DNA of 64,000 nt, taken from Antedon mediterranea (Eukaryota > Echinodermata > Crinoidea > Comatulida > Antedonidae). The notes below the pieces were generated by a model. The model was not told where the DNA came from and searched no databases. It worked only from the letters and a program-made list of their open reading frames with translations. Shown piece after piece: positions 13,505 through 37,108 of the stretch. Position 1 is the stretch's first letter. Every line of letters begins with the position of its first letter. A program made the position numbers and the translations under genes. The DNA is taken from the NCBI RefSeq assembly GCF_964355755.1, contig NC_092674.1, positions 6,453,001-6,517,000 of the forward strand. The letters run 5' to 3'.

Positions 13505-16142
13505 TCGTTCCCCTAACGGAGTTTTATTTCCACAATATTTAGGCCTCTGGCCCTTATATCTTACATACAAATCATACAATAATATTTTCTGGTTGGGTTG
13601 CAAAATAATATTTTCTATTTTCGTAAGCTAAATAAACAAAATTTGCTAAATCTTGGACTACTCTAGTGTTGCACATTAAAAAATAAAACTTATTTAAACA
13701 AGGGAACGTGTGATAAAAATTAGGAATATATAAGTTTCTGAGTTCGGAATAATATGGACAGACTAACATAAAATGAAATTCGTCTTCAATAGAATTCATA
13801 TTGCATAATTTACATAAACGGTTTTGAAGTGGGATTTTGTTCCATCTTCCCTTTTCTATTTCCAAATCTAACACTCCTAAACGAAATTTTGTGAATATAT
13901 TTTTACGTTTCCAATCTTTTAAGTGTAACAAATGATAACTTATTTCAATTTTCGTTTTAAAATACTTAAAATATTTTAGTTTTGAATGTAAAGAAAATTG
14001 TTCAAAATATTTTTGTTTTTCTAAATCAATCAGTCGTAATTTAAATTCTTTAATAAATAATTTCTTGTCTTCAATCATTTGATTGTACCAAACATAACCA
14101 AAGCCGGTTGAACAAAGTAAATGTTTTACCTGACTATAGCCCACCAATATTCAATTCTGTTAATAATAATTTTTTTTAACTGAAAACTGTAACATTTAAA
14201 AATAAATCTATTTTTATCCATGTCAATAATATGCAACCAAAAACGAATAATTGAAATTAAACAATCGACATGCAAGGAAACTCTGCCTAATTCTGTAGTT
14301 ACGGCTGCGCTAGGGGCACTTTTTCCAATGTTCAAAATAAACCTCGCAAAACGCGTGTGGAAATTATTAATAATTATTTGGTTAGAAAACCCCCATATTT
14401 CACTGCCGTAAATTAAAATTGGTAATATTTTTGTGTCAAAAATATAATTAGATGTATTTTCTGGTAAATATTTCATATTTCGACTAATAAAAGATTTAAC
14501 GGAAAATAACGCGTTGTTTGCTTTTTGACAATTATATTCAAGTGCTTTGTTCCACTGGCCATTTGAACTAAATACCACTCCTAAATAATTATAAGTCGTA
14601 ACAACCTCCATTTGAATATTCCTGTAATACCATTTTTCAAAATATTTTAGTTTCCCACCCTTTTTAAATACCATTATTTTTGATTTATTTGTGTTTACAC
14701 TGAGACCCCATGTGTCACAAAAATGTTCGAGTTTATTTATTAAAATTTGTAAGCCCCTTACCGTATCTCCAAATAATACTAAGTCATCAGCGTATAATAA
14801 ATGATTGATAAAGCTGTCTTCAACTTGTATTTTGTCGCTATCTCTACTCTGATTTAGATCATAACTTAAATCATTCATAAATATGTTGAAAAGTAAAGAG
14901 GATAAAGGTGAACCTTGTTGTATTCCAATAGAACAGTCAAATGGAAATGTCACTTTGTTACCAATTTTTACATGTGCAGACAAATTGTTATACATAGACT
15001 GAATTATATTGTACATATTACCATTTACACCTATTCGTTTTAATTTAAGTAAAAGAAAACTATGATTTATACTATCGAAGGCACGCTTGAGATCAATGAA
15101 ACAGCAGAATACCCTACCTCGTTTTTTACTTAAATAGTTTGCAATGATACTATTTAAAATAAAAATATTGTCGAATGTGCGAAAACCCTTACGAAAACCT
15201 GCTTGCTCTTGATAAATAATGTTGTTATTTTCAGTGAAGTGGTCTAATCTTGATTTAAGGATGTGTAACAAAATTTTGCCAAGTATCGGAATAAGAGCAA
15301 TGCCTCTGTAATTTTCTGGCTTATTCTTTTTGCCCTTTTTGTAAATAGGAATTATCATGCTCGTCGCCCATTGTGTTGGGAATTGGCCCAACTGAAAAAT
15401 TGAATTAAAAATAAGTTTTAGATTATCAAATAATAAATTGGGTGCATTTAAGATATATTCTAAAAACATACCATCCATACCAGGAGATTTTCCTGATTTC
15501 TGCATTTTCAATGCTTGTTTGATTTCACCCAAGTCAATTTCTGAATTGAGGTTATCATTTTCGTTAACAATGTTATGTACTATTTCGTCTGTAACTTTGT
15601 TAACTGGCTCGGGGGGTTCAAACAGTGATTGGAAATGATCTCGCCATTCGTTAATTGTTATTTCAGAAGTTATTGTTTGTTTATGAGTTTTTAATTTTGA
15701 CCAAAATTGTTTTGAGCTCCTATTACGTCGTGAGGTGGTTTCCCGATTAATCGTACGATCAAAACGGTACTGGCTGCTATTAAAATTTTGTCACGTTTTT
15801 GTTTTTGATGGTTATATTTCTTTTGTCTTATTGTTTTTTTGTATTCCTTTTAAGTTTGATATAATTATTAAATGAATTCTGTTGATCGTTATTTCTTAAA
15901 GCTAAAGCTTTATTCAATTCTTTTTTAAAATCTTTTTTTAAAGTAAGGCATTCGCGATCAAACCAGTTATTTGTTTTCTTAACATTTTGAATAGTGGTAT
16001 TAGCGGTAAAATGTGTAAATACTTTAGATATTCCGCTACAAGTGTATTCAAAAGTTTTTTGAAGACATGTTACAGCCTCGTCGATTTTGTTTTGAATTAT
16101 TGCGCTCATGAAACTGTTGTCTAACTTCTCGGTCAATATCAT
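13505..16142 (-). pseudogene. Non-LTR retrotransposon C, nested inside element B
   Basis: On the minus strand a linker region lies at 15828-16142. The reverse transcriptase spans about 14126-15640: GKSPGMDG, IIPIYKKGKKNKPENYRGI, AGFRKGFRT, CFIDLKRAFDSINH, QQGSPLSSLLFN and the catalytic LLYADDLVLFG near 14780. A frameshift near 14140 leads into the C-terminal tail (13572-14147), which has a Cys/His knuckle CKLCNMN...HFMLVC. One frame is open for 468 codons, so it is younger than A and B, but 5' truncation and frameshifts make it inactive. The endonuclease is missing. The clade is not assigned. Confidence 0.85.
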
Positions 16143-16499: not shown

Positions 16500-17766
16500 A
16501 TGTATCATGCCGGGCCGCGATTTTTTTTTTCGTACATAAGTTGGGGACCCCATGTGAAAGATAGCCAAACTACTTCCTAAATATAACCTAACCCTCCAAA
16601 TAATCTCTCTCACTATAAAGTAAAAGAGTAGCTCATGGGAGTTGAACCCCATAGATCGACATGTAAAGTCTTATTAACTCGACTACACAGACGGCTCGAC
16701 AGAAATCGTTTACATTAGCGAATTGTAGTTAGCTCGATTCTTACGTCACACCTTATGGATATAACTAATGAATATTCATGTTTATTTTGTGACGTTTCAC
16801 GAGGGGTCCTCAACTTATGTACGAAAAGAAATATCGCTGCCGGGCCGCGATTTTTTTTTTCGTACATAAGTTGGGGACCCCTCATGAAACGTCACAAAAT
16901 AAACATGAATAATTCATCAGTTAATTTTTTTGTTCCGTGTCTACCCAAGCGTCGTATAGCTAAAAGTGATTACAACTGCGATACGATTCTTTCTAGGCCT
17001 AGGATTCTAGGTCAATTCATGTGATTGCCTTCTCGCACTCTTCTTCACACACACACCAACCTATGCAAAATGTGTCGAGGCTAATCGACAGCTAGACAAG
17101 ACACATTCAACTAAGTAGTAATTAGACATAGCCCATAGAAAGCTTAGACCCACAAGAAGAATGTTTATAATTTGTGTACTGTAATTTTTTAAATTCTGCT
17201 ATTTTATTATCAAACAATATGCATGTACTCAAAGGAACTTTAAAAATGCGCGTATATGAACACATGAGATGGAAAGATTAGAACCACGAGAATAAAAAAT
17301 GTATTTTTGTGTAATGTAATTGTTTAATTTTGCTGACTTATTACTCGGACTGTGTCATACCTAACAGTAACACACACGTCACACCCACACAGACTACTAG
17401 AATAGACATGGACTTTAGAGACTAATAATTAGGCCTAATAGTATTAATAGAAACTATAATTTTAACACGTAATTCTTTAATAATACAATAATTATATTAA
17501 AAACTCTATCATAAACTAAAGGCTGATTATTTCGACAATCCACACAAAACGCCGCTATTCTTTTATGAAATCGCACACCGCAACCACAGCGGAGATGGCC
17601 TAGAATCGTATCGCAGTTGTGTCGTGTAATCACTTCTTGTTGTTATACGCTTGTGGGTGCACACGGAACAAGAAAATTAAACTGATGAATTATTCATGTT
17701 TATTTTGTGACGTTTCATTAAGGGGTCCCCAACTTATGTACGAAAAAAAAAATCGCTGCCGGGCCG
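16500..17766. mobile_element. Inverted-repeat element with a large internal hairpin
   Basis: The left end (16509-16555, GCCGGGCCGCGATTTTTTTT then CGTACATAAGTTGGGGACC) recurs inverted at the right end (about 17683-17766). A third and fourth copy form a near-perfect hairpin at 16752-16930, with arms of about 85 bp meeting at CTGCCGGGCCGCG. Nothing coding is evident inside; the short open frames follow the repeat. It may be one element with a nested relative, or a fold-back transposon. Confidence 0.55.
16628..16705 (-). repeat. tRNA-like sequence
   Basis: The minus strand has an A-box-like TAGTCGAGTTAATAAGA and a good T arm (ATGGG GTTCAAC CCCAT-like). The acceptor stem is not convincing, so it is probably a tRNA-derived repeat head. 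Confidence 0.35.
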
Positions 17767-18972
17767 GTGTAAGATTTAAATCTGTCCGGTGTTTGAAAGT
17801 GTCCACTGGACAATTTTCAGCATTGAATATTGTAATACTAGCTGTTGAAAATGGCCGCAACCACCCGGGCAGCTTTCATCGATAAAAAAGTAGGACCATC
17901 GAGACATCGACATCATATTAACCCCGTAAAAACTAGGGCACTGGACGTTCACCAACTCCCGTTAGGGTAATTATAATTCCTTAGAATACCAACTTGAATC
18001 GCAAAATATCAAGTGGATTGAAATAAATATTACTATTATTATATCTGGAGACATATAGTCTAATCAAATTAAATTGTTTGTTTTTGATTGAGTATATACA
18101 ACCTGTTGTCAATTTGAAGTAAATCGACAACTTGAAAAATATATAGCCTACTGTATTATTATTTCGAGGGAATGAATATCACTAAATCATATAGGCATAG
18201 GGCCTACCTATTTCGTTATCTCGAAATATTATTTCATTCGAAATTCGAATTACTACTTCGCGAGAGAACGAAATAATTTCCCTCGAAATTATTTCGTTCT
18301 CTCGATCATCATCATCATCATCATCATCATTCCTTGTCTCGAAGTAGTAATTCGTTTTTTATATTATTCAGTTCTTGAAATCTTATTTTGTTCTCCCTAA
18401 ATATATTCGTTCCCTCAAAATATTTTTCAGTTCTCAAAATATTATTTTGTAATATTCATAATACTGCTACTAATTTAATAATATCAACTGATAACAAAAG
18501 TTCTTTAAACAAGTAAGTTCGTCATTGTTAAAGTCAGTTCTTTTTCATTATATTTTTTTCACAGATGCCTGATTTTTGTTTTTATTTAATAAAACATTGA
18601 ATTGGTTAGTCACAATATTTGCTTTGTTTCTAGAGACTTTACATTATTTATTTATTTATCTAAAATACATTTGAAAAATATTGTTGATGCATATTACCAA
18701 AAAATATTTGTTTTTTATATTTTATATGGCAAAATAAACACCTTAATTGCGCATCATAATTATTCGTTCACTCAAGGGTATTTCGGTTTTTTGTTTTTTT
18801 CGAATATTAGGGTATTTCGTTCCCAATACAAACAGTCCAATACCGTTATACATCAAATTCATAGAATAATGGCTTATATTGAAATGAAGCGTTTAAAACG
18901 TCTTTGCCACAATGTCTGTACATGCAGCTGAGTTTAAAAAATCGCGGTTGTATTTTTGTTTTATATGGACAT
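17767..18972. other. Non-coding stretch with ATTTCG/CGAAAT palindromes and an (ATC)n run
   Basis: From about 18160 to 18360 the words TTATTTCGTTCTCTCG and CGAAAT recur in both orientations, followed by (ATC)n near 18304-18332. No exon was seen. About 45 bp at 17800-17840 (GTCCACTGGACAATTTTCAG) recur in similar, inverted form near 31000-31060. Confidence 0.45.
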
Positions 18973-19961
18973 ATAAACATAGAAACCACCAGCTAATACC
19001 AGAAATACCAACAGCTTATGTATCAATTTTTAAAATCAACACCAGCTAATTTAGAACGGTCAGCAGATAATGTAGTAACGAAAATTGCCTCACAGCTAAT
19101 GTTGAAAATATTGTATAATTTAAAAACCTGTCTACATCATGTGAAAATGCATTTCTTTACTTACCGGTAGCTATCCATCTATCCACGTCTCGTAAGTGAC
19201 CAACCAACAACCACTTCTAGTAAGTAACCACCTCTATTGAACGACCACCGTCTCTGATAATCGCCCACCATCTCTTAACGACCACACCACTCGTCAAGGA
19301 CGAGCTATTTTAAAGGACCACCACCTCGGCTTCTCATAATCAACCTCATGACGGACTACCTCTCTTAACGACCACGCCTAAAGTGTCGACCTCTCTATAA
19401 AAAAAAACGTCCACCTCTCCACTGGGACCACTTCTCATAATCGACTACCATCCGTAACGACCACCTTTCGCAAATTACCACCTCTATTGAGGTGGTCACT
19501 TACGGGAGGTGTAGTCGGTAAAAGAAGTGGTCGTCTACGAGCGGTGGTAGTTTATGAAAAGCAGTCCCTTATGAGAGGAGGTTACCCCTTCAGGAAGTTG
19601 TCCATTGTGAGAAGCGGTCCTTTAACAGAGGTAGTCCCTTTTAAATATTAAAGGTGGTCGCTAACAAGGGTAGTTGCTTACGATCAGAGTGCTACGTTTT
19701 GAAAGCCGATCACTTACGAGAGGTGGATAGACTGACAGCTAAACTAAGTAGAGAAATACATTTGCACATGATTTAGACATTTAGGTTTATAAAATATATA
19801 ATTATTATTTTATTAGCTGGCGATATTAACTACATCAGCTGTGAGGCAATTTTCGTTACTTCATTACCTGTTAAGTTGTATATTAGCTAATGTTGATTTT
19901 TATTTAATAAATAACTGTTGGTGTTTCTACATTAGCTAGTTCTAGGTTTTACTACATGGGT
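18973..19961. mobile_element. Fold-back element with minisatellite-filled arms
   Basis: The left arm (18973-19200) and the right arm (19700-19961) are inverted copies of each other. Shared blocks include AACGAAAATTGCCTCACAGC, CATGTGAAAATGCATTTCTT (diverged in the right arm) and TATCCATCTATCCAC. Between them lie many imperfect repeats of about 18-22 bp around CGACCACCTCTCGTAAG, in plus orientation on the left half and minus on the right half. A one-armed relative sits at 22921-23650. No coding capacity was seen. Confidence 0.75.
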
Positions 19962-21499
19962 GGATTTGACAGTTTCGACGACATTTGCTGCCGTTTTCTA
20001 CACTAGCGGTTTTGAACAGGGACTAGTGTAAAGGAAATGCCACAAGTTGTGTTTTTTTATTTTTTTTTATTTATTGTTTTGTGTACTAAAGTGGCAGCAT
20101 AATCAGTATTTATTTTTACCAGATGTCCAGCAAGGGTAATGTCCCATAACTCAGGCCACAATTGTCAGGTCAACCTCAAAACAGCGGCTCTCGGGAGATA
20201 TTAATTACCGGTAGTCGTGTTAACTGTCATCTGTTATTTGTCAGGAGAAGGGGTGCGAACTTGCCATATCTCAAATTAAGATTACGCTTACCATGAATAT
20301 GATTTCATTACAAGAATTATATACCACAGTATGTTACGTAATTTAATTCTCTTATTTTAAAAAATAACTAAATAAATTAGTATATGATTCTAGTATAAGT
20401 ATTATAAAAAATGTTTCTATTTAATATACAGGGAGCGGGGGTTGCCTCATAGCCTGAACGGTTTTAATACGAACTTATGTACTATAATATTATTTTACGT
20501 AGATTACTATTTAATATTATTTTATTTATTTAACAACATATTTATATAGGATTATACACAATCAAGTAGAAATATACTTGTTTTGCATTGTGGTCCTGTC
20601 GACAAAAACGGATACAAATTTAAATACAATTTCAATTAATATTATAATATAATTTGAGATGAACTTATAATATGTAATAAAGAATAACTATATGATTATA
20701 TTTTATACTCCTATCTGAATGTGCTATTTATTGTGTAATAGAACGACTGAAGCGTTTACCAATAAGAGTATCTTCGAAATTTAATTTAATAAATGGCATT
20801 TCCCTCCAATAGTTTTTTTCTCTCATTTTTTGTGTACTTGCCACTGTAATAAATTACCATTCCCTAACCATGAACATTCTAGAATAAGATGTTTACATTT
20901 AAGACATCATGTATAATTAATATAATAACAATCAGGAACATTCCAGTATGCTATTAATAGAAACTGTAATCAAATAGAATAAGAAGTATAAAGAATGATA
21001 TAGAAGGATAGGAACATCTTGTATATAAAGGGATGTAAAACTATTGTCATGTTGTTGGATATTAGAGGTTGGATATTAGATTGTAAAAGTTATTGTGAAG
21101 CTGTTGTTTAAAATGCTTACTGGGTTGTTGAAAGTTGAAGTTGATTGAAATTAAAGATTTGTTTTTGAGTTATTTTACAACTTTGTGAATTTGGTGTGTA
21201 TACTTTTATGTCACAAGGGAGTTTCTAAAGTATTTTCAACCGCTCGGAAACATACGTAAAAGGAGTTCGTGACATCCACTTAAGGCACAAAGTTTAAATT
21301 ATAGGCCTACACCTGACAAAACTGTTTGCTCTTTCTTCTAATCGGCAATTGGTTAAAACAAATGTAGCAAGAAGCTGATTGGCTCAATGTTTGTTCAAAA
21401 CCTCCTACATTTAAAAAATCATTCACTTTGCTTGCAAAGTTCCAATCACGGTGTTGTTCGTTACAATCTGCCTTCTTTCTATTTTTACTTATTATCATT
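19962..21499. other. Upstream region of the integrase-OTU gene
   Basis: No exon was recognised. A TATATAAAG word lies at 21022-21030, about 470 bp before the first ATG. CCAAT-type words (ATTGG) lie at about 21350 and 21377. These could belong to a promoter, but nothing else confirms that. Confidence 0.3.
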
Positions 21500-24400
21500 A
21501 TGGCCGATCATGAGTTTGATGCCTTGAGAAACTATCTACAAAACAACGTTTATCCTGTAAATTATTCTGAAATATTAAAACGAAGTTTGCGACGGAAAGC
21601 CAAGAACTTTACAATTCTTCGTGATATCTTGTATTACAAACAACATTCTGGTAGATTGTTGCGTGTATTGTTACCGAAAGAAAAAAACGAAGTGTTAAAC
21701 AGTATCCATAAGCAGGCACATGGTGGTCACTTGGGTGTCAACAAAACGTAAGTTTAAAGTTTGTCAATTAAATAATATTTAAGCTTCGATAAGTTTCTGG
21801 GTGACTTTAAAACTGTTTATATGTTTGGCCAGGTGGAATGCCATCCTGAGATGAGTATTAGTAATTAGTACAGCATTGTTTTTAAATGATTTTATACGTA
21901 ATTTTACTTTCTGTGGACCACAGAATTCGAAACAAATGATTAAATGAATGAATTAAATGAATAATAACTAATACTTATCAATTGAAAAATGTATAATGAC
22001 CGTGTACATTATGAAGTTAGTATTTTATATATAGATTCAAACATATTTTTATACCTCCATGAATGAAAAATATGTTAAGTCGATAATAATTTCTACTCAA
22101 TATATTATCGCAATTAATTGTATAAATATATTGAAGTTGAACATAAAATACCACATGTAAAAAATACAAAACATATATTGGCATTCAATAATTAATCAAA
22201 AATGTTCCGAATATGAGCACTGTTTCAATAATTTGACAGATTATTATTATATAATTTACACAGTGCTACACAACGCATATATCTTTAGTTCAAAATTAAG
22301 ATATCTCTTTTAATAAAGATAGATTATTTCAATTGAAAACTAAGATGTCTTACTTTTTAAAAGAAATATCTATGTTAATAGATATTTTTTTGTAGGCTTA
22401 TTACACCTCGAAAAACCAAGAAGAATACAGTACAACTAGCTCTATCTATAATAGTAATGTTTTAGTTTTATAACAGTTCATATACGGTACTCTACACGTG
22501 CCCACTGCATAACTAACACAGAAAAAAATCCACTTGTGATATTCCGAATGGGACAAGAATCTTCCATTCTAAATATCTTGGTAAGTAAGTAATATAGAGA
22601 TATCCCTCATGAGAGATATCTTAGTTTTAAATAGTGATACAAATACTTCCCGAATGAAAACTTATTCAGGTCTTGGTATAATAAATATGTTCAATATTAG
22701 TTGCTCATTCATAATGCAAAAAGCCATATCAGTATTAACTTTCGTTCGTTTAAAATGTATACTTATGAAAGAAAACACAATTTGACAAAAAAAAAGGTAA
22801 GGAAGAAGACTTTTATTATGTAACTTTAAAGTGGATTATTACATTTTTTTTTAGGGAATACTTCTTTAAAAAAAACGCATTTTCAATAACAAAACTAGTT
22901 TCCAATCCCCCGGTAATGGAGTAAAACCACCTGCAGCTTATGTAATGAAAAAAATTAACACCATGTAGAACGATCAACAACGAATGTAGGAACGAAAATT
23001 GCATCCCAGCTAATGTAGGACTATCGCCAGCTAATGTAGAAAATATATATTTTACAAACCTAAATGTCTAAATCATGTGCAAATGCATCTGTTTACTTAG
23101 CTATCCATCTATCCACGTCTCGTAACCGACCAACTTTCTAAAACGACCACACATCGTAAGCAACCAACTCTTTTAAGGGACCGTTTCTCATAATCGACTT
23201 CCTCTCTCGTAACGACAACTTTTTTGGGTGACCACCTCTATTAAACGGCCATCGTCTCTGTTAAGGGATCGCTTCCCATAATCGACCAACTATTGTAAGT
23301 GATCACATCCTCTCATTATGGACCGCTTCTCATAATCGACCACCTCTCGTAGTAAGCGACCACCTCTCTTAACAACCACAACTCTCGTAAGCGACCGCTT
23401 TTTATTTTCGACCGCCTCTCGTAAGTGATGATCTCTTTTAGAAGACCACCATATCTCTAAATGGACCGCTTCTCATAATATACCAACTCTTGTATAAATC
23501 ACCTCTCTTAAGTGACCACTTCTAATAAACGACCTCTCTGTTAGGAGACCGCTTCTCATAATCGATCACATATCGTAAGCGACCACCTCCCTTATCGACC
23601 ACATCTTTCGTAAGTGACCACCTATTTTAAAGGACCACTACCTCTCGCAATCTACCATTGTGGCTCACTAAAAAGTACCCGGTTTCCTTAATAGGGTGTC
23701 CTCTACATTTTAAAAATAAATAAATTTAACCAGTATGTAGTGTTAAAACGTATATATTTCCCCTTGTTTATTTTAAAAAAAAAGTGGCGATTTTTATATC
23801 TACTCTGTCGCACATTCACCAAGCGTACACAATAATTCTAGTAGGACAATTAATTATTTATACTTTTCAAGTTAGTTTTTTATTGCCTGAGTGAATTATT
23901 ACCAGATTGAGGGCGTAGTTATTTTGTATGGGAGGCTGCACTCAATTTGAAGTTTATATGGGGGTATTTAGAATGTAAACACGGTACAATCAGGGAGATG
24001 TAAATCTCCCTGGTACAATGTGACACGGAATCATCACGGACTGATGGACATTTTTCATAGAAGGTATCTTTTCCCTTTTCAATATTCATTTATCATTGTC
24101 AAATAAAAAAACTAGAAACATAGATAAATATTAAAAGTGAATTAATCAGTTGTGCCCAGTGCTTGCCTTAAACGAAAAGTTAAAATATATGGAACGCCAA
24201 ACTGTAATGTTATTATAATGCATTGATGAGAATGGTGATGTGAACTGCGGTAATAAATAATAAATAATATTAAAAAACAAAATAAAATTAAAATATTTAA
24301 AGAATCCATAATACAGTTTTAAGGTCAATAGTAAACCTACAAAGAGATTGAATATCATCAATACAATAAACACATTTTTTTTTTTTTTTAACAGTTGGAA

Positions 24401-27323
24401 AAAGATACGCGAAAGGTATTATTGGAAGGGGTCATTTGATGGTGTTCGTAATTTTATAGCCGCCTGTGATCAGTGCCAACGGAAAGAAGTTTTAAAAAAA
24501 GCAAAAGTGCCACTTCAACCTATACCCGTAACAGATACTGCTTTCAGACAGATCGGTATGGATATTGTTGGGCCTTTGGTAAAGACAGAAAATGGTAAGG
24601 TATCTCATGACAAATTACTGAAAAACAAAAATGCTGTGACTGGATAAAAAAGCTAAATCAAAACGTAAAAGTAAAAAGCAAGAAGACATGAATGAAATAC
24701 GTTCAGAAAACTTTGTAATTCATTCTTCAGGGCCTAAAATTACAGTTAATAATTAGTTCTGTTCGGCCTTTATTGTAATAGGGCTGAACTTAAATTTATT
24801 ATTGTAAAGGCACAAGCGCAATTTCTGTGAGGTTTCTTGAAATTGTTAACTAAACTAAAATTATGACAGTTCTCTTTTTTACACTGTCAACAAAAACTAG
24901 ATTTACCAAGAATCAGATGCTCTTATTATTGTCACCGGATTTACATCGATTATGGCTATACTGTAATAATCTTTATTTCTGCCTGTTTTAATTTGATCCA
25001 AACCATGACTGGGGTAATACTGTTCAGCGCATAGAGGTTTTACAACATTAGGCGCTATGTAAATCCACGATATTATTATTGTTCTTGTTCTTATTATATT
25101 TATTGATATTAATATTGTTATTATTATTGTTATTTCATTCGTACAGTTCGGGTGTTGTACATCTCATCATGACATTTTGACACTACTATTATTACGGCTT
25201 ATTATATTATTATTTGCTGTGTTTCAGGTAATCGGTACTTACTTGTATTTACGGAGTACCTTACCAAATGGGTGGAAGCTGATGCAATTCCAGATAAATC
25301 TGCTAAAACAGTGCTGAGATCTTTTATTGATTTTGTCTGCAGACATGGAACACCTTCTATATTGATTACAGACCAGGGTAGAGAGTTTTGTAATGAGCTG
25401 AATGACAGCTTCTGTAAGCTGATTGGGGTAGACCACAGAGTTGCCTCACCATACCATCCTCAAACAGGCGGGCAAACGGAGCGCTTTAACAGAACACTTT
25501 GCACAATGCTTATGACGTTGACCAACGCAGACCAAAATGACTGGGATATACAACTCCCATACGTGTTGTTTGCCTACAGAACATCCGAGCACAAGTCTAC
25601 GAAATGTGACCCATTCTCATTAGTTTACGGTAGAAAGGCTGTGTTGCCTGTAGAATTACGTATTCCCATCGTTTCGTCTAATAAAGATGACATATCCGGA
25701 ACTGTTCCTTTAAAAATAAGAGTGGACGCTTTTTTGAAACTCAAAGATTCAAGGAGAAAGGCATCAGAAAATATCAAAAAAGCACAGAAAAAGCAAAAAC
25801 ATTATCATGATGCTGGTGTTAAAAGCAACACGTACTATGCAGGAGATCAAGTGCTCTTGCAGAATTCCAGAAATTTGTCAAGAAAGGGAGGCAAACTTAA
25901 TGCTCGATGGACTGGTCCATATATTATAGAAAAAGTCCTCACTCACAATACATATCGACTAAAAGGAAGAAGGGCTATTGTTAACGGAAACAAGATCAGA
26001 CATTACAAGTCCGATAAAACAACCTCTTTGAACTGTCCATCATCAAGCACTAAACAGAAATGTAATACCAATGATAAGCATCTCCCTCCAAAGAAACGAA
26101 AGCGAACGCCAGACATCCCACCTGAAGTAACGCACCATGATAACATACCTACATCCAAGAATGGTGATATCACACCGGATGATCACATTATTAACATACC
26201 TACATCCAAGAATGTTGATGATAACGATAACAGACCTACATCCAAGAATTATGATATCACACCGGATGATCACATTAACATACCTACATCCAAGAACGAT
26301 GATATCACACTGGATAATCACGATAACATACCTACATTAGACAATGATAATGTCGCACCGGATGATGACCATGACAACAGTAGGCCTGTATCTGATAGTG
26401 ATGTGGTATACCTCAACACGAAAACTTCAAGAAAGTTATTCTTTCCTGTCGATGCCAATTGGCAGCTTGAAAAGGCAGCACCATTTGGTATCAATGTCAA
26501 AAATTTTCACAAAACTCACTTAAAATGTGAAATGGACAAGGCAGCCAGGCCTACTAAAGTTGTTAATATGAGAGGGGACGGCAACTGTCTTTTTAGGGCT
26601 TTGAGTTATATTCTCTTTGGTGTCCAGAACTACCATGTAGTTGTACGGGATTACATACTAAACTATATGTCCATGAACAAAAACCTATTTGAAAAAATTG
26701 AATCCAGATCATTTGAACGATACGTGGAAGACACGAGAATGGGGGAATATGGGACATGGGGTTCGGACATCGAAATCATGGCATTTGCGACCATGTCAAA
26801 TACGAATGTTTATGTTTACAGTAAATATGGAAGAAGGAAAGGGCTTCCACATTATGAATGGTTGAAATATGCACCAATAAGTAATCAGTTTGGTGATTTA
26901 GTATCTGAAAGAAACATCTACCTATCAAACTTATGTGCACACTTTGAGCCTGTCCTGGATGTAGACAAGAAAACTTATGACGCTGAATTAAAATACACTC
27001 GTACACCATACGCACCAATCAAAAACCACCTTGCACGGAAATACTGGGATATTGTATCCGATGTGACCCTCAATGCTGCTCTGGTAGATAATTACGAAGA
27101 TGAAGCGGTAATGCGTTCCGAAGGCATTATGGACGTTATATACGTATCTGAATTCACGGACACACATTATGACATTGAAGCAGTCAACCATCTAAAAGAT
27201 GATATCGATCCAAATATATTCAATTTGCTTTGTGACATGGAACATTTCCCGGAAAGGATTCATCAGAGCAACAATGAAGTACCTGGACAATTATATGTTG
27301 ATTCATACAACGTCACTCTTTAA
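21500..27323 (+). CDS. Integrase-OTU fusion protein (domesticated or Ginger-like), three exons, intact
   Basis: Exons 21500-21747, 24395-24594 and 25228-27323 (TAA) join in phases 2 and 1 across GTAAGT/ACAG and GTAAGG/TTTCAG borders, giving 847 residues without a stop. The N-terminus is followed by an HHCC zinc module: H70/H74/H77 candidates, C107 and C110 in CDQCQ. The DDE core is complete: D139 (IGMDIVGPL), D198 (LITDQGREF) and E234 (HPQTGGQTERFNR), with exactly 35 residues between the last two. A GPY module follows (WTGPYIIEKV, 379-381). Next come an acidic repeat linker (about 452-534) and an OTU cysteine-protease domain: catalytic D600/C603 in GDGNCLFRA and candidate H721 in AHFEPV. There is no gag, protease or RT and no LTR was recognised. 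Relatives known to me are GIN1 and Ginger transposases. An upstream in-frame ATG at 21428 would add a hydrophobic leader and is less likely. Confidence 0.88.
22921..23650 (+). mobile_element. One-armed copy of the fold-back element, in intron 1 of the integrase-OTU gene
   Basis: It shares AACGAAAATTGC, AACCTAAATGTCTAAATCAT and TATCCATCTATCCACGTCTC with the element at 18973-19961. About 550 bp of degenerate CGACCACCTCTCGTAAG-type repeats follow. The opposite arm is absent. The host gene is not disrupted. Confidence 0.7.
26134..26375 (+). repeat. In-frame acidic tandem repeat inside the integrase-OTU gene
   Basis: The coding repeat has units around IPTSKN-x-DITPDDH(D/I)N, about five copies of 9-16 residues, with variable spacing but frame kept throughout. 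It links the GPY module to the OTU domain and is predicted to be flexible and negatively charged. Confidence 0.85.
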
Positions 27324-27440
27324 CTGTAGGCCTACCTATGACCGGTAATCTCAACATACACAGAAGCATTAAATGGTGAAAAGGGTATTTGTTTACCTTA
27401 TAGAGGTAAGTTTCGTTAATGCTTTGATTTTTTACAGGTG

Positions 27441-27718
27441 CTTCCGTCAAGAGGAGATTGTCGGCTTTGTCTGAAACTCATCGACGAAGAAATACCAATT
27501 GCATTTGTCGGACCAGAAAGAAGAACATAGATTCACCACAGCGGCTAATTAAAGCGTCACCATCTTTCATTGAATCAACGGAAGACGAATATCTGAGCAT
27601 AAGTACGTCAAAGGCTCAAGGGGTCTAATGGCAGGTAACAACAGATCAAATACAGTGTGTCCAGTGTAAACATGCAATGATGTGTCATGCGCCCTGCTTT
27701 GATCGCTACAAGGATTAA
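27441..27718 (+). pseudogene. Decayed Cys-rich tail resembling a piggyBac-type transposase C-terminus
   Basis: Two pieces read GDCRLCLKLIDEE (27456-27494) and, in another frame, QIQCVQCKHAMMCHAPCFDR (up to 27710, TAA at 27716). The pattern CxxC ... CxxC ... CxxPCFxxY resembles the zinc-binding tail of piggyBac-like transposases. One frameshift and one TAA (27626) break it. A TTTTTTACAG acceptor-like site directly precedes it (27430-27438), so a spliced 3' exon of the neighbouring gene is an alternative. Confidence 0.35.
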
Positions 27719-28379
27719 AAAATTAATTAAAAAGCAGATTGTATAAAAGAATAACGCGACTAAAGGTCCGGTAAGGTAAAAGTACGTGAATTAGATTGTA
27801 ACTAGTGTTTATTTTTATTGTATTTTTATGTTTAAAAAACTTTTTCATATTTACAACTCATATGATTCTGTTTCATAATGTTATGCAATTTTCTTCTATA
27901 ATATGTTTTCTTTGGTCAAAGGGGCACATACAAACGTGCAACCTACCCTCGCTATGATCATCAACCTTGACGTGGTAGCGAGGCTTGCGTGCTTCCAATG
28001 TATTGGTAGCCAGACCAATGATGATCAATAACAAAGTAAAATAAATACAAACACACTTACTGAAACAAGTTTTAATAGCAATAAATAAATAAATAAATAA
28101 ATATTTTTCTGTAACTATTGTTCATTATTATTACACTATTATTATTTTATCCTGTTAATATAAGTAATGATCAATGATATATAATTTATGTTTACAAAAC
28201 TCGTTCATATTTACAACTCATTCTGACAAGACAACAACATTTAATATTTTTGTAATTCACAATTCATACATTTATTTGTAATGTATTCATGAATTTGCTT
28301 TTCCTTCATCCAATCTACATAGTAGATATATGAAACTATTGTTCTAACCACGTGACTATGTAGCATAGAACATTAATTC
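27719..28379. other. Non-coding, AT-rich
   Basis: It contains an (AAAT)n run near 28080-28101. Nothing else is supported. Confidence 0.4.
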
Positions 28380-28585
28380 TAAACCGCCCGGTAATATACT
28401 GAAATTTAATTAATTAATTTGAAACGATAAAGATGAGGAAATCTGTGAGAATGAGTTAAAGTCGCCCCAACCGAGACTCGAACTCGGACCGCCTGCTTGA
28501 TATGCAGATGTCCTAACCGTTAGACCACTGGGGCTTTCACGGTTCGAACTCGATTGGATAGCGACTCTTTAACATTCTCGGCGTG
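28380..28585 (-). mobile_element. tRNA-derived SINE, copy 1
   Basis: The minus strand at 28464-28534 folds as a full cloverleaf. The acceptor GCCCCAG pairs with TTGGGGC, the D stem is GTCT/AGGAC, and the T arm is CCGAG TTCGAGT CTCGG. The anticodon loop is ATATCAA, giving ATC in the anticodon position. A-box TGGTCTAACGGTTAGG and B-box GTTCGAGTC are good. A shared tail (CCTCATCTTTATCGTTTCAA on the minus strand) follows, so this is a SINE head rather than a lone tRNA gene. A second copy lies 266 bp away. Confidence 0.7.
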
Positions 28586-28644
28586 GTACGGCGGAACAGC
28601 ACTAGTCCTCAGTTGTAAACACAACAGGCATAGAAATAAATTCC

Positions 28645-28872
28645 AAACCGCCCGGTGATACACTGAAAATGATTTAATTAATTTTTGAAACGATAAAGAT
28701 GAGGAAATCTGAGAGAATGAGAAAAAGTCGCCCCAACCGAGGCTCGAACTCGGACCGTCGGCTTGATATGCAGTTGCCCTAACCATTAGACCACTGGGGC
28801 TTTCATGGTATTGTTCTTTAACTCGACCGGATAACGACCCTTTAACATTCTCGGCGTGGTACGGTTGGAACA
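28645..28872 (-). mobile_element. tRNA-derived SINE, copy 2
   Basis: It aligns with copy 1 throughout, including AACCGCCCGGT, the tRNA-like head (28730-28800) and TTTAACATTCTCGGCGTGGT. The anticodon stem has more mismatches, but the loop ATATCAA is the same. Confidence 0.7.
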
Positions 28873-28874
28873 CA

Positions 28875-28875
<1 letters not shown>

Positions 28876-28916
<41 letters not shown>
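28876..28916. repeat. (AT)n microsatellite
   Basis: Uninterrupted AT dinucleotides directly before a long palindrome. Confidence 0.9.
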
Positions 28917-28919
<3 letters not shown>

Positions 28920-29026
28920 CAGTAACAAGTGTACATTATTGTAAATATAACAAATACATATATATTATATATATATATATATGTATATGTATTTGTTATA
29001 TTTACAATAATGTACACTTGTTACTG
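28920..29026. repeat. Perfect AT-rich palindrome with 43-bp arms
   Basis: CAGTAACAAGTGTACATTAT... on the left is matched base for base by its reverse complement ending ...TGTACACTTGTTACTG on the right, around a (TA)n centre. It could form a cruciform. Confidence 0.9.
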
Positions 29027-29759
29027 AACTATGGAGAATTTTTTTTTTTCGAAATAAAAGAAGAATGAATGAATGAATTTATTTTCAATCTTTCTACATA
29101 ACAACAAATATATAGTATAACAGGGGAGTAGCGGAAAAGCAAAAGTAAAGTAAATTTGAACCAGCCAAACATGTATGAAACATTATCCAGTAAGCACATT
29201 TTATAAGAAGCTTTTGTTTATTAAAATGGGTTTCTCTGAAATTCCAGAAGTTTATTAAACATTGAAAATAACACAATCGCCTTTAAACAAAATGCTGTTC
29301 AAAAAAAGAATCGGTTGAAGCAAGCGTTCTTATAACATCCGATAAAATGAAGGTTCAATAAAGTAGCCCTATTAACAAATGTATGAGGTCTCAGGCCTAT
29401 CCCATATTAATTATTTTTATAGATACATTAATTTTAAGATTCCAGATACCGAATTGTTGTTTTTTTACATAACAAGTCATTTTTTCTTTGAATATAAATT
29501 CTGATTTAAGGACAAAATACTAAAATAAATACTTACACCAAAGGTGCATAAAAACGTGTTGATGTGGCGCTATATCGATGTCATTATCTTTGCATTCACC
29601 CTAGACGCACATAGTGTGACACCCCTACCATATTCTCGATGTGACGATCAATGTACCAATTAACATAATACTTCAGTAAAACTGATTATGTTTTTTCAAG
29701 AGATCAGCTATATCGTGTTGATTATAAAAAGGTGCAACTTTTAATTGATTGGGGATTAA
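29027..29759. other. Non-coding; (GAAT)n run
   Basis: An AATAAA-like word and GAATGAATGAATGAAT near 29054-29080 look like the 3' tail of a non-LTR element. No coding remnant could be recognised. Confidence 0.35.
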
Positions 29760-30810
29760 ACAAGTAAACTATTTATTCTTCTTGTCTTTACTCGTACAAA
29801 ATAATATAACGGTCGCTAATTGGAAGTGTTTAAACTAAAGTGATCTATAATTGGAAGAGGACCCGTACAATTACTTGTTTTTTATCACATGATTATAAAC
29901 TATTTATTCTTTTTGTCTTAACTAGTATTTATTCTTCTTGTCTTTATTCATACAAAATAATATAACGGTCGCTAAATGGAAGTGTCTTAAAGTAAAGTGA
30001 CCTTTAATTGGAAAAGGACCAGTACAATTACTTATTTTTTATCACATGATTAAAATCTATTTATTCTTCTTGTCTGTACTCATACAAAATAATATAACGG
30101 TCGCTAATTGGAAGTGTCTTAAAGTAAAGTGATCTTTAATTGGAAGAGGACCAGTACAATTACTTGTTTTTTATCACATGATTAAAATCTATTTATTCTT
30201 CTTGTCTGTACTCATACAAAATAATATAACGGTCGCTAATTGGAAGTGTTTAAATTAAAGTGATCTTTAATTGGAAGAGGACCAGTACAATTACTTGTTT
30301 TTTATCACATGATTAAAATCTATTTATTCTTCTTGTTTCTATTCATACAAAACAATAATAACGGTCGCTAATTGGAAGTGTTTAAATTTAAGTGATCTTT
30401 AATTGGAAGAGGACCAGTACAATTACTTGTTTTTTATCACATGATTATAAACTATTTATTATTCTTGTCTTTACTCATACAAAATAATAAAACGGTCGCT
30501 AATTGGAAGTGTTTAATTTTAAGTGATCTTTAATTGGAAGAGGACCAGTACAATTACTTGTTTTTTGTCACATGATTAAAAACTATTATTACTCTTGTCT
30601 TTACTCATACAAAACAATAAAAATGGTCGCTAATTGGAAGTGTCTAAACTAAAGTGTTCTTTAATTGGAAGAGGACCAGTATAATTACTTGTTTTTATTA
30701 CATGATTATTATTATATTGTTATTTATTCTTCTTGTCTTTATTCATACCAAATAATATAATGGTCGCTAATTGGAGGTGTTTTAAGCCAAGTTATCTTTG
30801 AAAAATAAAA
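29760..30810. repeat. 132-bp satellite array, about eight units
   Basis: The marker GGTCGCTAATTGGAAGTGT recurs at 29811, 29967, 30099, 30231, 30363, 30494, 30625 and 30762, a spacing of 131-132 bp for most units. Each unit also holds ACAATTACTTGTTTTTTATC and CTTCTTGTCTTTA-type blocks. No gene lies inside. Confidence 0.92.
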
Positions 30811-32086
30811 ACTAGTTTGGCATTATTAACAAATAGTGGTCGTTAAAAAAAGACAAGTGCATGCGCAATCACGATCAAAACCTGAATCTCAAATCTCAAC
30901 CACGGACGGTATTCAATCCAAGGGTCAGACATTATTAAACGCGCCGGACAGCATTAAATTGTTGGAAAACGCCCGCGAACCCGTTGAAACATGCAATTGG
31001 ACATTATCCAATGCTGAAAAGTGTCCACCCGGACACTTTTGAATGATGGACACATTTCAATCTTACACCGGCCAGAGACCGACCGAGCTGAGACTAGCTA
31101 GCTAGTTGTTCTGCTGACCATGTATAGGCTTAGGCTAGGAGGCTAACTCTAGTTAGGCCTAGAATTTGGTTACACATTAGTGGTGCGTCTAGATTTGATT
31201 TCAACGATTGCTAAAACTTCATTTTAAGCATAAATAACAAATTCATATATTTATTATGACTTATTTTAAAGCACAATACAAAAATACTCCACCTTACCAA
31301 TCGTTCCAACAAATCCACAAGATGTTTACTTCTCATACGCCCTCTATGAAATGTGTCTACTATATTAACACTATTAATAAAAAAAATGGGAAACCCAACT
31401 TATAGGGCCCTGGTGGGGATTCCCCGACTGCTAAACAATGTTATTTATTTAATTTATTTAAAACTGAAAAAACAATGCATTTTATAATTGAAATGAAATT
31501 CAGTGAAGTGAAAATACTATTCAGACAAATCATTCAATTACAGCCTCATAGAAATTGAAATCAATAATAGATTTCACAATGATGCAATTATTCATCACAC
31601 AATTGTTTACAGTTTTACTTACAGAGGCCTGTTATGGTTTTTTAATAATAAAATTGCTCATGAGGCCAATTCTCAGCGGTGGTTGGAATCATGCCAGTGT
31701 TATTGTATGTTAACATATAACACACAACACGGTAACATAAGCTTCTCTGTCAATAACAACTTATACAGATCCACTATAATACACTGTCACTATTCATGGT
31801 ATAAATTGGCCTTATAATGCAGGCTAAAAATACTGAGCGCCTTTTATGGAGTATTATAAAGCTTTAAAACGTTATTTTTATTTGAATATAGAACAATGCC
31901 CTTTTTATTAAATAATAAATAAGTAGGATTACGGCGGATGTATGAATAATAGGCCTACGTTCTATAAATAGCATTTGATGGAAATTCCAAAGGTAAAAAA
32001 AGATAGACTTTACAGCATTCGTTGTCGTTTCAGAGATTAGAAATTTGCTTAGAAAGAGATCCAGGCCAGGGGTTGTTTGTTCAAGA
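30811..32086. other. Region upstream of the TNF-receptor-like gene
   Basis: No exon was recognised apart from possible 5' UTR. At 30990-31070 it carries GCTGAAAAGTGTCCACCCGG and CTTACACCGGCC, an inverted relative of 17760-17840. Confidence 0.35.
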
Positions 32087-34140
32087 ATGGCGTTGTACAT
32101 GGTCTTCTTAATATTGCATTTTATAATCTTTTCTTCTGGGGACTCAAAATCTGAGAATGACGTGTGCAAACATGGTTACTATGCGAAAACTCTTCCCAAA
32201 AGGACGACGAAGAAAAACAACAAATACGCTTGCATGAAATGTGGAATGTGTAGAGACGGGGTGGAGGTTATTGCGTCATGTACAAAATGGTCGGATGTAA
32301 AATGTGGTGGGTGTATTCATGAAGACCTTGGGTTTATTTTTGATCACATTACAAAGTCGTGCCAACATTCTGACGTCTTGTCTGGAAAGGTCGCACCGGA
32401 AGAGATCTGGACAAAGCTTGGGTTACGATCAACTACTACTAGGCCTAGGCCTATATCAAAAAGATTTTCTACAACGCCTGCAATAACCATTTCAGTACAA
32501 GATTCGGCAGCATTGTATCCAGAAGAAGGTCCTCATGGCATAAAGCATGTCAATTCTCTAACATTCGAAGCAACACCTTCAGCGCCATCTGTCCTGTCTT
32601 TGATATCAGTTGGATCTGCCACAATTCTGTCTCTGGCCTTAATTCTTTTGATTATCTTGAGCTGCAGGTTAAAGGCAGAGCAGGATGGAGTAGATTCGTT
32701 ATTTCCTTGTGTGGTTTACAAGTGTTTTAAAGGAATATGTAACAGTGAATCACGTAAGTGTGTATGGGGGGGGGGGGGGGGGCAAGAGTTGAAGTTTTTT
32801 CTACTGGGGTACATCAGTAGGCCTAGGCCTACGTGTCCTTGCACACTCTTGATGCTTAACGTGGGCTGTTAAAAGTATTTTCTCACCCACTGTTAAATTT
32901 GAAGCAAAAACAGAGAACTATACGCACAGATATTCTTCAAATAATGTCTAGTTTTGTGATAAATGATAGCTGGCCTTACTGTATAGTTATTTAATTATTT
33001 ATTGCCTAACATTGTGGTATCTAACCCAATTATGTATTTTAGTATCATTGGTAAATTTCGTAATACAGCATATCATGTGTATCACATGTGTGGTGCCTTT
33101 ATTTAGGGTGATGATACAGGAGTCATATATCAGTACATACAATCTGCCGGGTATCTCGTTTATAAGGAACTTGGTAAAGTTGCTTATAAATATTATAGTG
33201 ATGTACTGTAATTATTTCCTTTTTCGGTAATCGGGATTTTCCTAATGTTTACTGGTACCTGTATGTCGCAGTGGAAACTAGACATTGCTTCCTCTTTCAA
33301 TTTCTCTAGGCCTATTGTTGTCAGACATATCTTCGTTTGTGTTTGCTACTAAAGACATTAATTTTTCTTCCCGTGTTTATTAAAAAGCTAATTTGTTGAA
33401 TAACACAAGCATTTACCCATAGCATTCATTCCTTGTTGAATACGAGATCATCGTCTTAGCATGCGCGCATAATATAATAATATAATAATTACACGCTGCG
33501 AATCTGTTTAATACGAGATAAGAAAATAATATACTGTAACAAACAACAAACAACAAATTTGCTGGTACAGTTTTAGCTATAGAACTTGTTGAATTATAAT
33601 TTATTATTATTTACAGATAATCAAACTCATAATGGTAGGCCTACATCTGAGATAGGCCAATTTCACGTCGTCACAACAACGAATAAAAGCCCCTCTGAGG
33701 AGAAAGAGAAGCTGTGGAGTGAAGATTTTGAGTTCCCAAGATCAATCAGCTTGATTGACCTAAGAACGTCGGATTCGTTCCATTCAATCATCAAGCTCGT
33801 CTGTAAAAGTGCATCCTGTCTGGAATTCGAGTACGGTTTAGCCCGCGACAGCAGGCCAACTTCAAATAAGCACAAAGCACATGGTGCACCAGTCAGCTTC
33901 TATATTGGAGATTTTGGTGTAAAGAAGTTATCAAAATCAAAATGTGAATCAAATATGGAATCCGAGTTCACTTCTTTTTGTTCGTCACATGTCTTTAGCG
34001 ACAGGTTAAGTGATTGTGGAAGCGTTTCTTCTGATGATGAGTATGGTGCGTGGAGAGCGTTTATGGCGTGCCATAACATTACAACTTATGACGAAACTGT
34101 TGAAAGCGATGTATGGATACTTAAAGTAACTACAGTCTGA
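32087..34140 (+). CDS. TNF-receptor-superfamily-like type I membrane protein, two exons
   Basis: Exons 32087-32753 and 33617-34140 (TGA) join in phase 1 across GTAAGT/TTACAG, giving 396 residues. The first Met (MALYMVFLILHFIIF) begins a clear signal peptide, which favours it over the in-frame ATG at 32045. One cysteine-rich domain follows: C-HGYYA..., then CMKCGMC, VEVIASC, WSDVKCGGC and a later C, the spacing of a TNFR repeat. A Thr/Pro/Ser-rich stalk leads to a membrane segment (SVLSLISVGSATILSLALIL). The cytoplasmic part (about 180 residues) has acidic and Ser-rich stretches but no death domain that I can see. Ligand and signalling are unknown. A single-CRD ectoderm-receptor-like (EDAR/TROY/EDA2R) affinity is possible but not shown. 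Confidence 0.75.
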
Positions 34141-34929: not shown

Positions 34930-37108
34930 TTAATATGAGTTCTTTCTTTTCTTGTGACCTTTCTTTGGTGGATCTGGAAAATAAAAGCGTCCAACAAGAC
35001 CAAAATGATCTGATAAGTCGGTGATGACCAGACTCCCTAGGCAGTCAGGTGATGTCGCAGATACGTAGCCTCCCGTTGTTGCGTTGACACAGATGTTTAG
35101 TGGCTTCGTTTTTGGTTTGAAGACGCTTAGAAGAGATTTAGCGTTAGATTTATGAGCAGAGCTCAACACAACGTAGTCTATCCACTGTTCTTGTGGTTCG
35201 TTAACTAGACGATTCAAGTCATTTGTAAGCGGATCAAAGGTCGTTCTTACACGTCCAACTCTACGAGGTAAGATTGCGCCCATATTTTCGAGAACTCGTT
35301 CAGCATGGTCTTGGAAGTTGTTCAGATCGGCGTTGAAATCTCCCGCCATAATGACCGCTTCGGTGGAAGGAATGTTACGTCGTGATATAAAGTTTTCAAA
35401 CTCGGTGGCTTGAAGTTCCCGGATTGCTTGCCTAGAATCGCCAACCTGCGCCTGCATGTGTGTACCAAACACGTGATACGGGAGAGTACGGTTGTGGACT
35501 GTCTTCATCACGTGCGCGTACATGATTCCCTTTGACGAAAATGGATCAAATGTCGTTGGATCAGTGTTGTTAAATATGTAATCTTCGTAGTATGCAATTG
35601 GCCAACGTGAGGCAATAAATGTTCCGCCATTTTCAAAGATTAAGAAGTTTTCGGCTTCTTCTGCAATTCCAACATTTGGAGTGACGTACTTGAAACCATA
35701 GTATTTCAACAGATCTCTAAAATCAAGTTTGCCAGGAAAGCATCCGCCCATAGCTAGTTCTTGGAAGACGATGACGTCAACTCTTCGGATGTTCTTTAAT
35801 ATTTCAAGAGGTATACGACAGGTTCGTTCTCTCTGACCAGTGTATTGGTAAGATGGTGGTATATTAAAAATCGGAACCGAATACTCGTAGTCCAGCTCCA
35901 ATACATTATACGACACCACTTGCAAGAAGTTAGCTGGAGTTGATGGAAGAAGAGGGCGTGCTTTTGGTGCTGCACATATCACTACGTCACTGCAGCCAAC
36001 AGTCTCTACATCGCAATTGACAGTGCTTGTACAGATGTAAGAAAGACCAAATTGTTTGCATGTCAATGCACTGTACTCAGTTTCCTCCGTGCTACTAGCT
36101 GAGGAATAAATCAAACATTAAATGCGCATTTCATAATTGCGGGGTTTCTATTTCTACTACTTAAGCCTAATAGTTGTAAAATGTTTTAGCAAGTTTCAAT
36201 CATAAAAGGCTCGTATTGTTGCTCTGAACATGTTCGTCTTTCTTAAAGCTCTGTCTACACTATCAAACTTTATGTGACAAAAAATGTGAGATGCCCATAT
36301 ATGGACACATGATATCATATCACTACCATATTTGGGCACATCACACTTTGTCAAACTAGTTTGATAGTGTAGACAGAGCGTAAGTTATGTATATTACTGC
36401 CACGAGCAGGTAAAACGTTCAATGTTTCAGTGACACATTTATTCAGATTTTTCTGCGTAAATTGCAATTGTAACTTACATAACCAAACAAATGGCCGCTC
36501 GTCATTGGTTAGTTTTTCATCTTCATCTCCGTTGCAACTCCGATACAACCGACCTGAAACCATCAAAGTAGGCTTACAGTAAATACCATAACATTGTTCT
36601 TAAATAAACGTTAAGATATAATACAGACATTTGTGAAACGAAATAAAACTCTGTGGAACCGGGTGTTTCACGACAATGCGAGTACCCACTATTGGGTCTA
36701 AGAGTATGTCTGCTAATAATGTTCCTGAGCGTGCGCAGAATGACTTTTTGACTTGACAGTTCCGTAGTCTAGTAGCATCGAGTGTCCGATAGACCTAACG
36801 CGAGTAAAACAATCAATTTTGTTCTAAAATCTGGAAGGGCAACTTTTTTTTCTGTGGCTTAGTAAAAAATACAATTGATTATTGTGTTAACAAGCACCCG
36901 TGCTAGGACTACTTAAGTATTCATAATTAACACAATATGCTAATTTACATTTAACCCGTCAGTTGGTGACTTCATAACTATCAGAAATGAATAGGAATAT
37001 AACAGGCTACATTGTAATAATTCAAACATTATTTGTATACATACCTTTTGAATGTTTTGAAGTCACACATTGGATGAGATACACCAGTAATAGAGCCTTA
37101 AGAATCAT
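34930..37108 (-). CDS. Secreted sphingomyelinase C-like phosphodiesterase, copy 1
   Basis: Minus-strand exons 37045-37108 (signal peptide, MILKALLLVYLIQCV), 36479-36553 and 34930-36098 (stop) are all joined in phase 1 with GT-AG borders, giving 435 residues. A short segment with SCNGDED...RPFVW and a Cys-rich region (five Cys between residues 60 and 88) precede an endonuclease/exonuclease/phosphatase fold. Expected metal and catalytic sites are visible: Asn in SYNVLELD (N111), Glu in FQELAMGG, His in GTHMQAQ, Asp/Asn in AGDFNADL, Asp in IDYVV and the C-terminal SDHFG. The pattern FENGG...IASRWPI...SKG is that of the bacterial-type neutral sphingomyelinase family, predicted to release ceramide and phosphocholine outside the cell. 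The tail is short and basic. It is the downstream member of a tandem pair. Confidence 0.88.
36243..36384. mobile_element. TTAA-type MITE copy in the large intron of sphingomyelinase copy 1
   Basis: A nearly complete copy: CTTAAAGCTCTGTCTACACT at the left and GATAGTGTAGACAGAGCGTA at the right. It lies between exon 2 (36479-36553) and exon 3. Confidence 0.88.

Follow-up and report, generated by a model that had tools for sequence, protein, structure and literature searches.

The analysed stretch of DNA (in the following the window) comprises 64,000 nucleotides of contig NC_092674.1 of the crinoid Antedon mediterranea (assembly GCF_964355755.1, positions 6,453,001 to 6,517,000 of the forward strand). 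At its positions 21500 to 27323 lies a three-exon gene that joins an integrase to an OTU protease domain. A first-pass annotation had described it as an intact, spliced frame of 847 codons, and the exons, the GT-AG junctions, the HHCC, DD35E and GPY motifs and the OTU residues were all confirmed. The gene almost certainly encodes the transposase of a Ginger1 DNA transposon, a large and autonomous element spanning 17768 to 31067. The gene comprises the following features:

21500..21747, plus strand: transposase exon 1 with the histidines of the HHCC motif (from the gene model and motif residues)
24395..24594, plus strand: transposase exon 2 with the HHCC cysteines and the first catalytic residue, Asp139
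25228..27323, plus strand: transposase exon 3 with Asp198, Glu234, GPY and the OTU protease domain; of 25 near-identical copies including the window, 13 have it uninterrupted
26538..26966, plus strand: OTU domain, edges approximate, taken from the aligned range of the fold comparison
26577-26579, 26586-26588 and 26940-26942, plus strand: OTU catalytic residues Asp600, Cys603 and His721, from motif reading
27438..27530, plus strand: alternative fourth exon of the database protein P0001, with exon 3 then ending at 27278

The 847-codon frame starts with the ATG at 21500, runs through the three exons, which are joined via two GT-AG introns, and stops at 27321-27323. The matches to Integrase_H2C2 (5.1e-17), rve (3.1e-11) and OTU (1.3e-10) each exceeded the curated Pfam cut-off. 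H70, H74 and H77 together with C107 and C110 form the HHCC zinc finger, the catalytic triad comprises D139, D198 and E234 with a D198-E234 spacing of 35 residues, and GPY follows the integrase core at residue 379, most of the aligned rows having it as well. Y18-P19, F37 and Y45-Y46 precede the zinc finger and may correspond to the YPYY motif.

The three-exon integrase-OTU gene is real, and since 9 of 20 other fetched copies keep the frame uninterrupted, it cannot be attributed to chance. When the exon 3 frame served as query, it was matched over 96% of its length at 100% identity by P0001 (863 aa), a protein named by NCBI for A. mediterranea. This protein has identical exons 1-3 up to 27278 and then splices to a fourth exon at 27438-27530, and therefore the 3' end of the 847-codon model at 27323 is uncertain. 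The region 27438-27720 of the window holds this possible fourth exon, followed by a short cysteine-rich reading, CVQCKHAMMCHAPCFDRYK, which gave no Pfam match and which we take to resemble the C-terminal zinc finger of piggyBac-like proteins.

For the OTU domain, both the fold and the catalytic residues Cys, His and Asp were supported by Pfam, by an alignment of 17 relatives picked by domain content from the listed 120 of 203 protein matches, and by a fold search that covered the OTU part (about residues 5-186 of a 302-aa model). In the alignment, the catalytic residues are conserved among proteins 29-46% identical to the window protein. Based on the fold and these conserved residues, a deubiquitinase activity of the domain is plausible.

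The first-pass annotation, which had seen no gag, reverse transcriptase or long terminal repeat, had suggested a search for terminal inverted repeats beyond 21200 and 27720, and such repeats were found, lying roughly 3.4 kb beyond these positions at both ends. A scan for equal 4-bp flanks combined with inverted ends yielded one outstanding pair, 17768/31067, with CCGG outside and TGTAAGATT reading inwards. The element comprises the following features:

17768..31067, plus strand: whole Ginger1 element, 13.3 kb in the window copy, from the end scan, the alignment of the terminal inverted repeats and the genomic copies
17764..17767, no strand: 5' target site duplication CCGG, with the same four bases at 31068-31071
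31068..31071, no strand: 3' target site duplication CCGG, from the end scan
17768..17833, plus strand: 5' terminal inverted repeat, beginning with TGTAA, which fits the TGTNR rule
31001..31067, minus strand: 3' terminal inverted repeat, from the repeat alignment and genomic matches
29770..30782, plus strand: tandem array near the 3' end, with a unit length of about 132 bp and many partial matches per copy
26704..27227, plus strand: stretch of 524 bp missing in six other copies, with a resulting frame shift, a stop at codon 644 and loss of His721

The terminal inverted repeats are imperfect, with 53 identical positions in 67 alignment columns and one gap. In 200 first-order Markov resamplings of both flanking regions, none equalled the observed score; the best reached 21 of 30 compared to 22 observed, a small margin, and it is the genomic copies that settle the element ends. 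An inverted-repeat search limited to 19500-29500 detected no element ends, because these lie beyond that range. The long inverted arms that it did reveal, at 19.5-19.9 kb and at 23.0-23.4 kb, are internal repeats rather than element ends.

Because only the best candidates were scored in the genome search, every copy number given here is a minimum; the ends were paired by position. With the first 333 bases as query there were at least 40 scored matches (82 candidates), 22 of them at full score, and the last 333 bases gave 23 full-length matches at 99-100% in addition to shorter or older ones, the window being included in both cases. Pairing resulted in 23 two-ended elements, of which 20 are between 13.0 and 15.8 kb long; the remaining three measure 11.6, 17.2 and 22.0 kb. 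Most copies are longer than the window copy, and at positions guessed from the window length the 3' end was present in only one of 20 stretches (L032). The tandem array presumably accounts for much of this difference in length; many other copies carry units like those of the array, as do older relatives that are about 79% identical at the 3' end.

A matching 4-bp duplication was determined for 22 of the 23 two-ended copies (CCGG in 21, CCGT in one). At C1:37329184, CCGG precedes the 5' end of one more copy, for which no matching 3' end was among the matches listed. The copy at C5:9259215 is inserted in a dispersed repeat. Joining its flanks with a single CCGG between them gives a sequence that matches at least 40 places across the junction at 98-100%; these are uninterrupted paralogous sites. 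Since the copy C3:16387028 has a 5' flank identical to that of C5:9259215, it lies in the same place of another repeat unit. The ends, the CCGG duplications, the many near-identical copies at different sites and the uninterrupted target sites are thus all directly observed. At C3:16371836-16372514, two elements of the family occupy neighbouring CCGG sites 15 bp apart. Furthermore, 5'-end matches (97-98%) and 3'-end matches (79%) lie only about 4-5 kb apart at C6:31616671-31621374, C3:17767335-17771145 and C5:30616009-30620331; these three pairs are probably short non-autonomous relatives of the element.

The first-pass annotation had also proposed a count of genomic copies. A protein search, which sees the copies by exon 3, gave at least 25 near-identical gene-bearing copies, window included. 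Of the 25, 13 have exon 3 uninterrupted up to residue 847, beginning at 148 or 149; six belong to a deletion class, two carry one TAG and four are otherwise damaged or partial. The gene region was requested for 20 other copies, and the nine with the full 847-codon frame bring the intact genes to ten, counting the window. These ten differ on average at 2.8 of 2544 bases (0.11%), and just nine codons separate the nine from the window. Five of the other 11 share the 524-bp deletion. One copy each shows a stop at codon 160, a 2-bp frame shift, loss of most of exon 3 and a break within the OTU domain; another carries an insert before exon 3, which thereby fell outside the fetched stretch, and the last showed no gene at the requested place. 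Altogether, the element family is young and recently active, with a very recent spread.

The five deletion copies named were read, and a sixth (C1:1523636) was assigned to the class, without being read, by the same 148-660 pattern. All six lie at different sites. Since five of them are flanked by CCGG on both sides, they have moved after the deletion arose, either by themselves or in trans. The codon-160 stop class occurs at two sites, with one copy read and the second assigned by the same 718-codon, one-TAG pattern. Because this stop lies inside the integrase, movement in trans is likely within this family.

These observations can be compared with published Ginger1 transposons. Bao et al. 2010 (PMC2836005) define Ginger1 by an integrase with GPY/F, TGTNR ends, terminal inverted repeats of 40-270 bp and CCGG or CCGT duplications, and their table gives an OTU or Ulp1 domain at the C-terminus of 15 of 16 families, with 0-4 introns. 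The suggestion in the first-pass annotation that some Ginger1 transposons carry such protease domains is thereby borne out, and the integrase-OTU fusion is a published Ginger1 feature, since Bao et al. list it across families. In the element described here, the H2C2 and DDE core, GPY, the C-terminal OTU domain, inverted repeats starting with TGTAA, CCGG/CCGT duplications and the grouping in the tree are all found. As in this element, the OTU-bearing Ginger1-1, -2, -3 and -11_HM, Ginger1-1_AC and Ginger1-1 and -2_AP combine an H2C2/DDE/GPY integrase with a C-terminal OTU domain and introns; they likewise share the TGTNR ends, the length range of the inverted repeats and the 4-bp CCGG/CCGT duplications. 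Unlike these, the element resides in a crinoid host and carries a long 3' tandem array.

In the tree, the integrase groups with OTU-, Ulp1- and PHD-bearing rows at a support of 98-99, and Gypsy rows fall outside the OTU/Ulp1 group; the tree contains 46 relatives picked by domain content, and the group is named by its C-terminal domains without published Repbase Ginger1 proteins. Predicted mollusc proteins that bear an OTU domain, such as Mercenaria mercenaria LOC128550298 (P0005), likewise pair it with an integrase core and share with the Antedon protein an extension of about 110 residues after the OTU domain. At the protein level, P0005 differs in showing 50% identity over 41% of the 716-aa query.

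Several observations weigh against the Ginger1 reading. With 13.3 kb (13.0-15.8 kb in 20 of 23 copies), it is about twice as long as the longest of the 13 families with a given length, which range from 2.6 to 7.1 kb in the table of Bao et al.; this range is a description and not a defining rule, and the comparison rests on that table. Repbase held 23 autonomous Ginger1 entries in 2022 (PMC10045372). One of the 23 two-ended copies has no matching duplication (TGCC versus CCGG), and 12 of the 25 gene-bearing copies lack a complete, undamaged exon 3. Although the latter half of the OTU domain is missing from six copies, these have spread as well, which lends no support to a need for the domain in cis. 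Finally, expression, splicing and activity of the transposase are predictions from the sequence. Three points are less usual in this comparison: the size with respect to the published table, how recently the family has spread, and the class of copies that share the OTU deletion. Nonetheless, the ends, target duplications, copies and phylogeny support the reading as a Ginger-type transposase that the first-pass annotation had offered, and the element is a well-preserved, young member of a known transposon group.

Based on knowledge of the family, the integrase part would bind the TGTAA ends, cut beside the terminal CA and join the ends to CCGG targets with a 4-bp stagger, with the GPY module assisting multimerisation of the transposase. 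Intact copies probably move those with broken genes in trans. More tentatively, the OTU domain could be an active cysteine deubiquitinase of the OTUD5/OTUD3/OTUD1 type, which might trim ubiquitin off the transposase itself or off host repair or silencing factors around the insertion.

The strongest alternative is a sub-case of the Ginger1 reading and overlaps with it in probability: the OTU domain would be a passenger with no role in transposition. The six deletion copies at separate sites are in favour of this explanation. However, they are also explained by mobilisation in trans, as the codon-160 stop class inside the integrase likewise occurs at two sites. The presence of OTU or Ulp1 in 15 of the 16 tabulated families (PMC2836005) and the conservation of the catalytic residues over large distances also argue against it. 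A passenger domain is considered rather unlikely.

Far less probable is a domesticated single-copy host gene derived from Ginger1 and encoding a DNA-bound deubiquitinase; domestication had been one option of the first-pass annotation. The intact spliced frame with all catalytic residues kept would be in line with it, and domesticated genes of this origin are known: GIN1/GIN2 of vertebrates and Imagin of crustaceans descend from Ginger1 transposases (PMC2836005, PMC12863088). These are host genes, whereas the Antedon element is multi-copy; Imagin is described as single-copy and without inverted repeats (PMC12863088), and neither holds true here. The at least 25 near-identical gene-bearing copies with inverted ends, CCGG duplications, differing flanks and uninterrupted target sites refute domestication at this locus, and the first-pass annotation had itself named such copies as decisive against it. 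The genome contains two diverged sequences that match the OTU region at 57% and 61% identity, each with two stop codons. For a role in genome defence, which had been raised as well, no supporting evidence turned up, with no direct test aimed at such a role.

An origin from the integrase of a Gypsy-type long terminal repeat retrotransposon after loss of gag and reverse transcriptase has a negligible probability: the core does resemble Gypsy-like integrases (rows at 32-39% identity), and many integrase cores occur in the same genome (at least 150 scored of 835 candidates), but the terminal repeats are inverted rather than direct and flanked by CCGG, the scanned open reading frames of the element of at least 90 aa contain no reverse transcriptase domain, and the Gypsy rows lie apart in the tree.

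As to further content of the Ginger1 element, no second gene was found among the open reading frames of at least 90 aa: 18593-18931 (plus), 24146-24418 (minus), 28520-29020 (minus) and two short downstream frames passed no Pfam cut-off, in a scan that left out the frame at 26043-26336, which runs antisense to exon 3 on the minus strand, and the plus-strand frame 17604-17885, which crosses the 5' end, and had smaller or spliced genes beyond its scope. A DUF2768 match at 18593-18928 was below the cut-off and set aside. Inside the transposon, two sequences resembling tRNA-Asp (anticodon ATC; 56 and 42 bits in Rfam) lie 266 bp apart on the minus strand, at 28463-28534 and 28729-28800, and the copies L067 and L072 align across this stretch; possibly the pair is a tRNA-derived short interspersed nuclear element or a captured tRNA. 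Outside the element, a reverse transcriptase frame at 14129-15790 on the minus strand (RVT_1, 8.3e-38) is probably a non-LTR element. A frame adjoining the insertion at 31997-32869 showed a TNFR cysteine-rich region just under the Pfam cut-off (5e-6). The frame at 34933-36117 on the minus strand matches the Endonuclease/exonuclease/phosphatase family (1.2e-6) and presumably resembles a secreted sphingomyelinase-type protein.

An active role in transposition was proposed for the Ginger1 OTU and Ulp1 domains by Bao et al. 2010 (PMC2836005), and no experimental test of it was found in the literature searched, part of which was available to us. From the sequence data, we lean towards an OTU domain that is both active and useful. 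A doubtful extension would be a currently active family of giant Ginger1 elements with an OTU domain that works as a deubiquitinase and aids transposition in trans, while the OTU-truncated copies (6 of 25) parasitise the intact ones. If this were true, the family would constitute a natural separation-of-function series for asking what purpose a transposase-borne deubiquitinase serves. With at least ten intact, near-identical transposase genes, defined ends and known target sites, the family is a good starting point for testing the role of the OTU domain.

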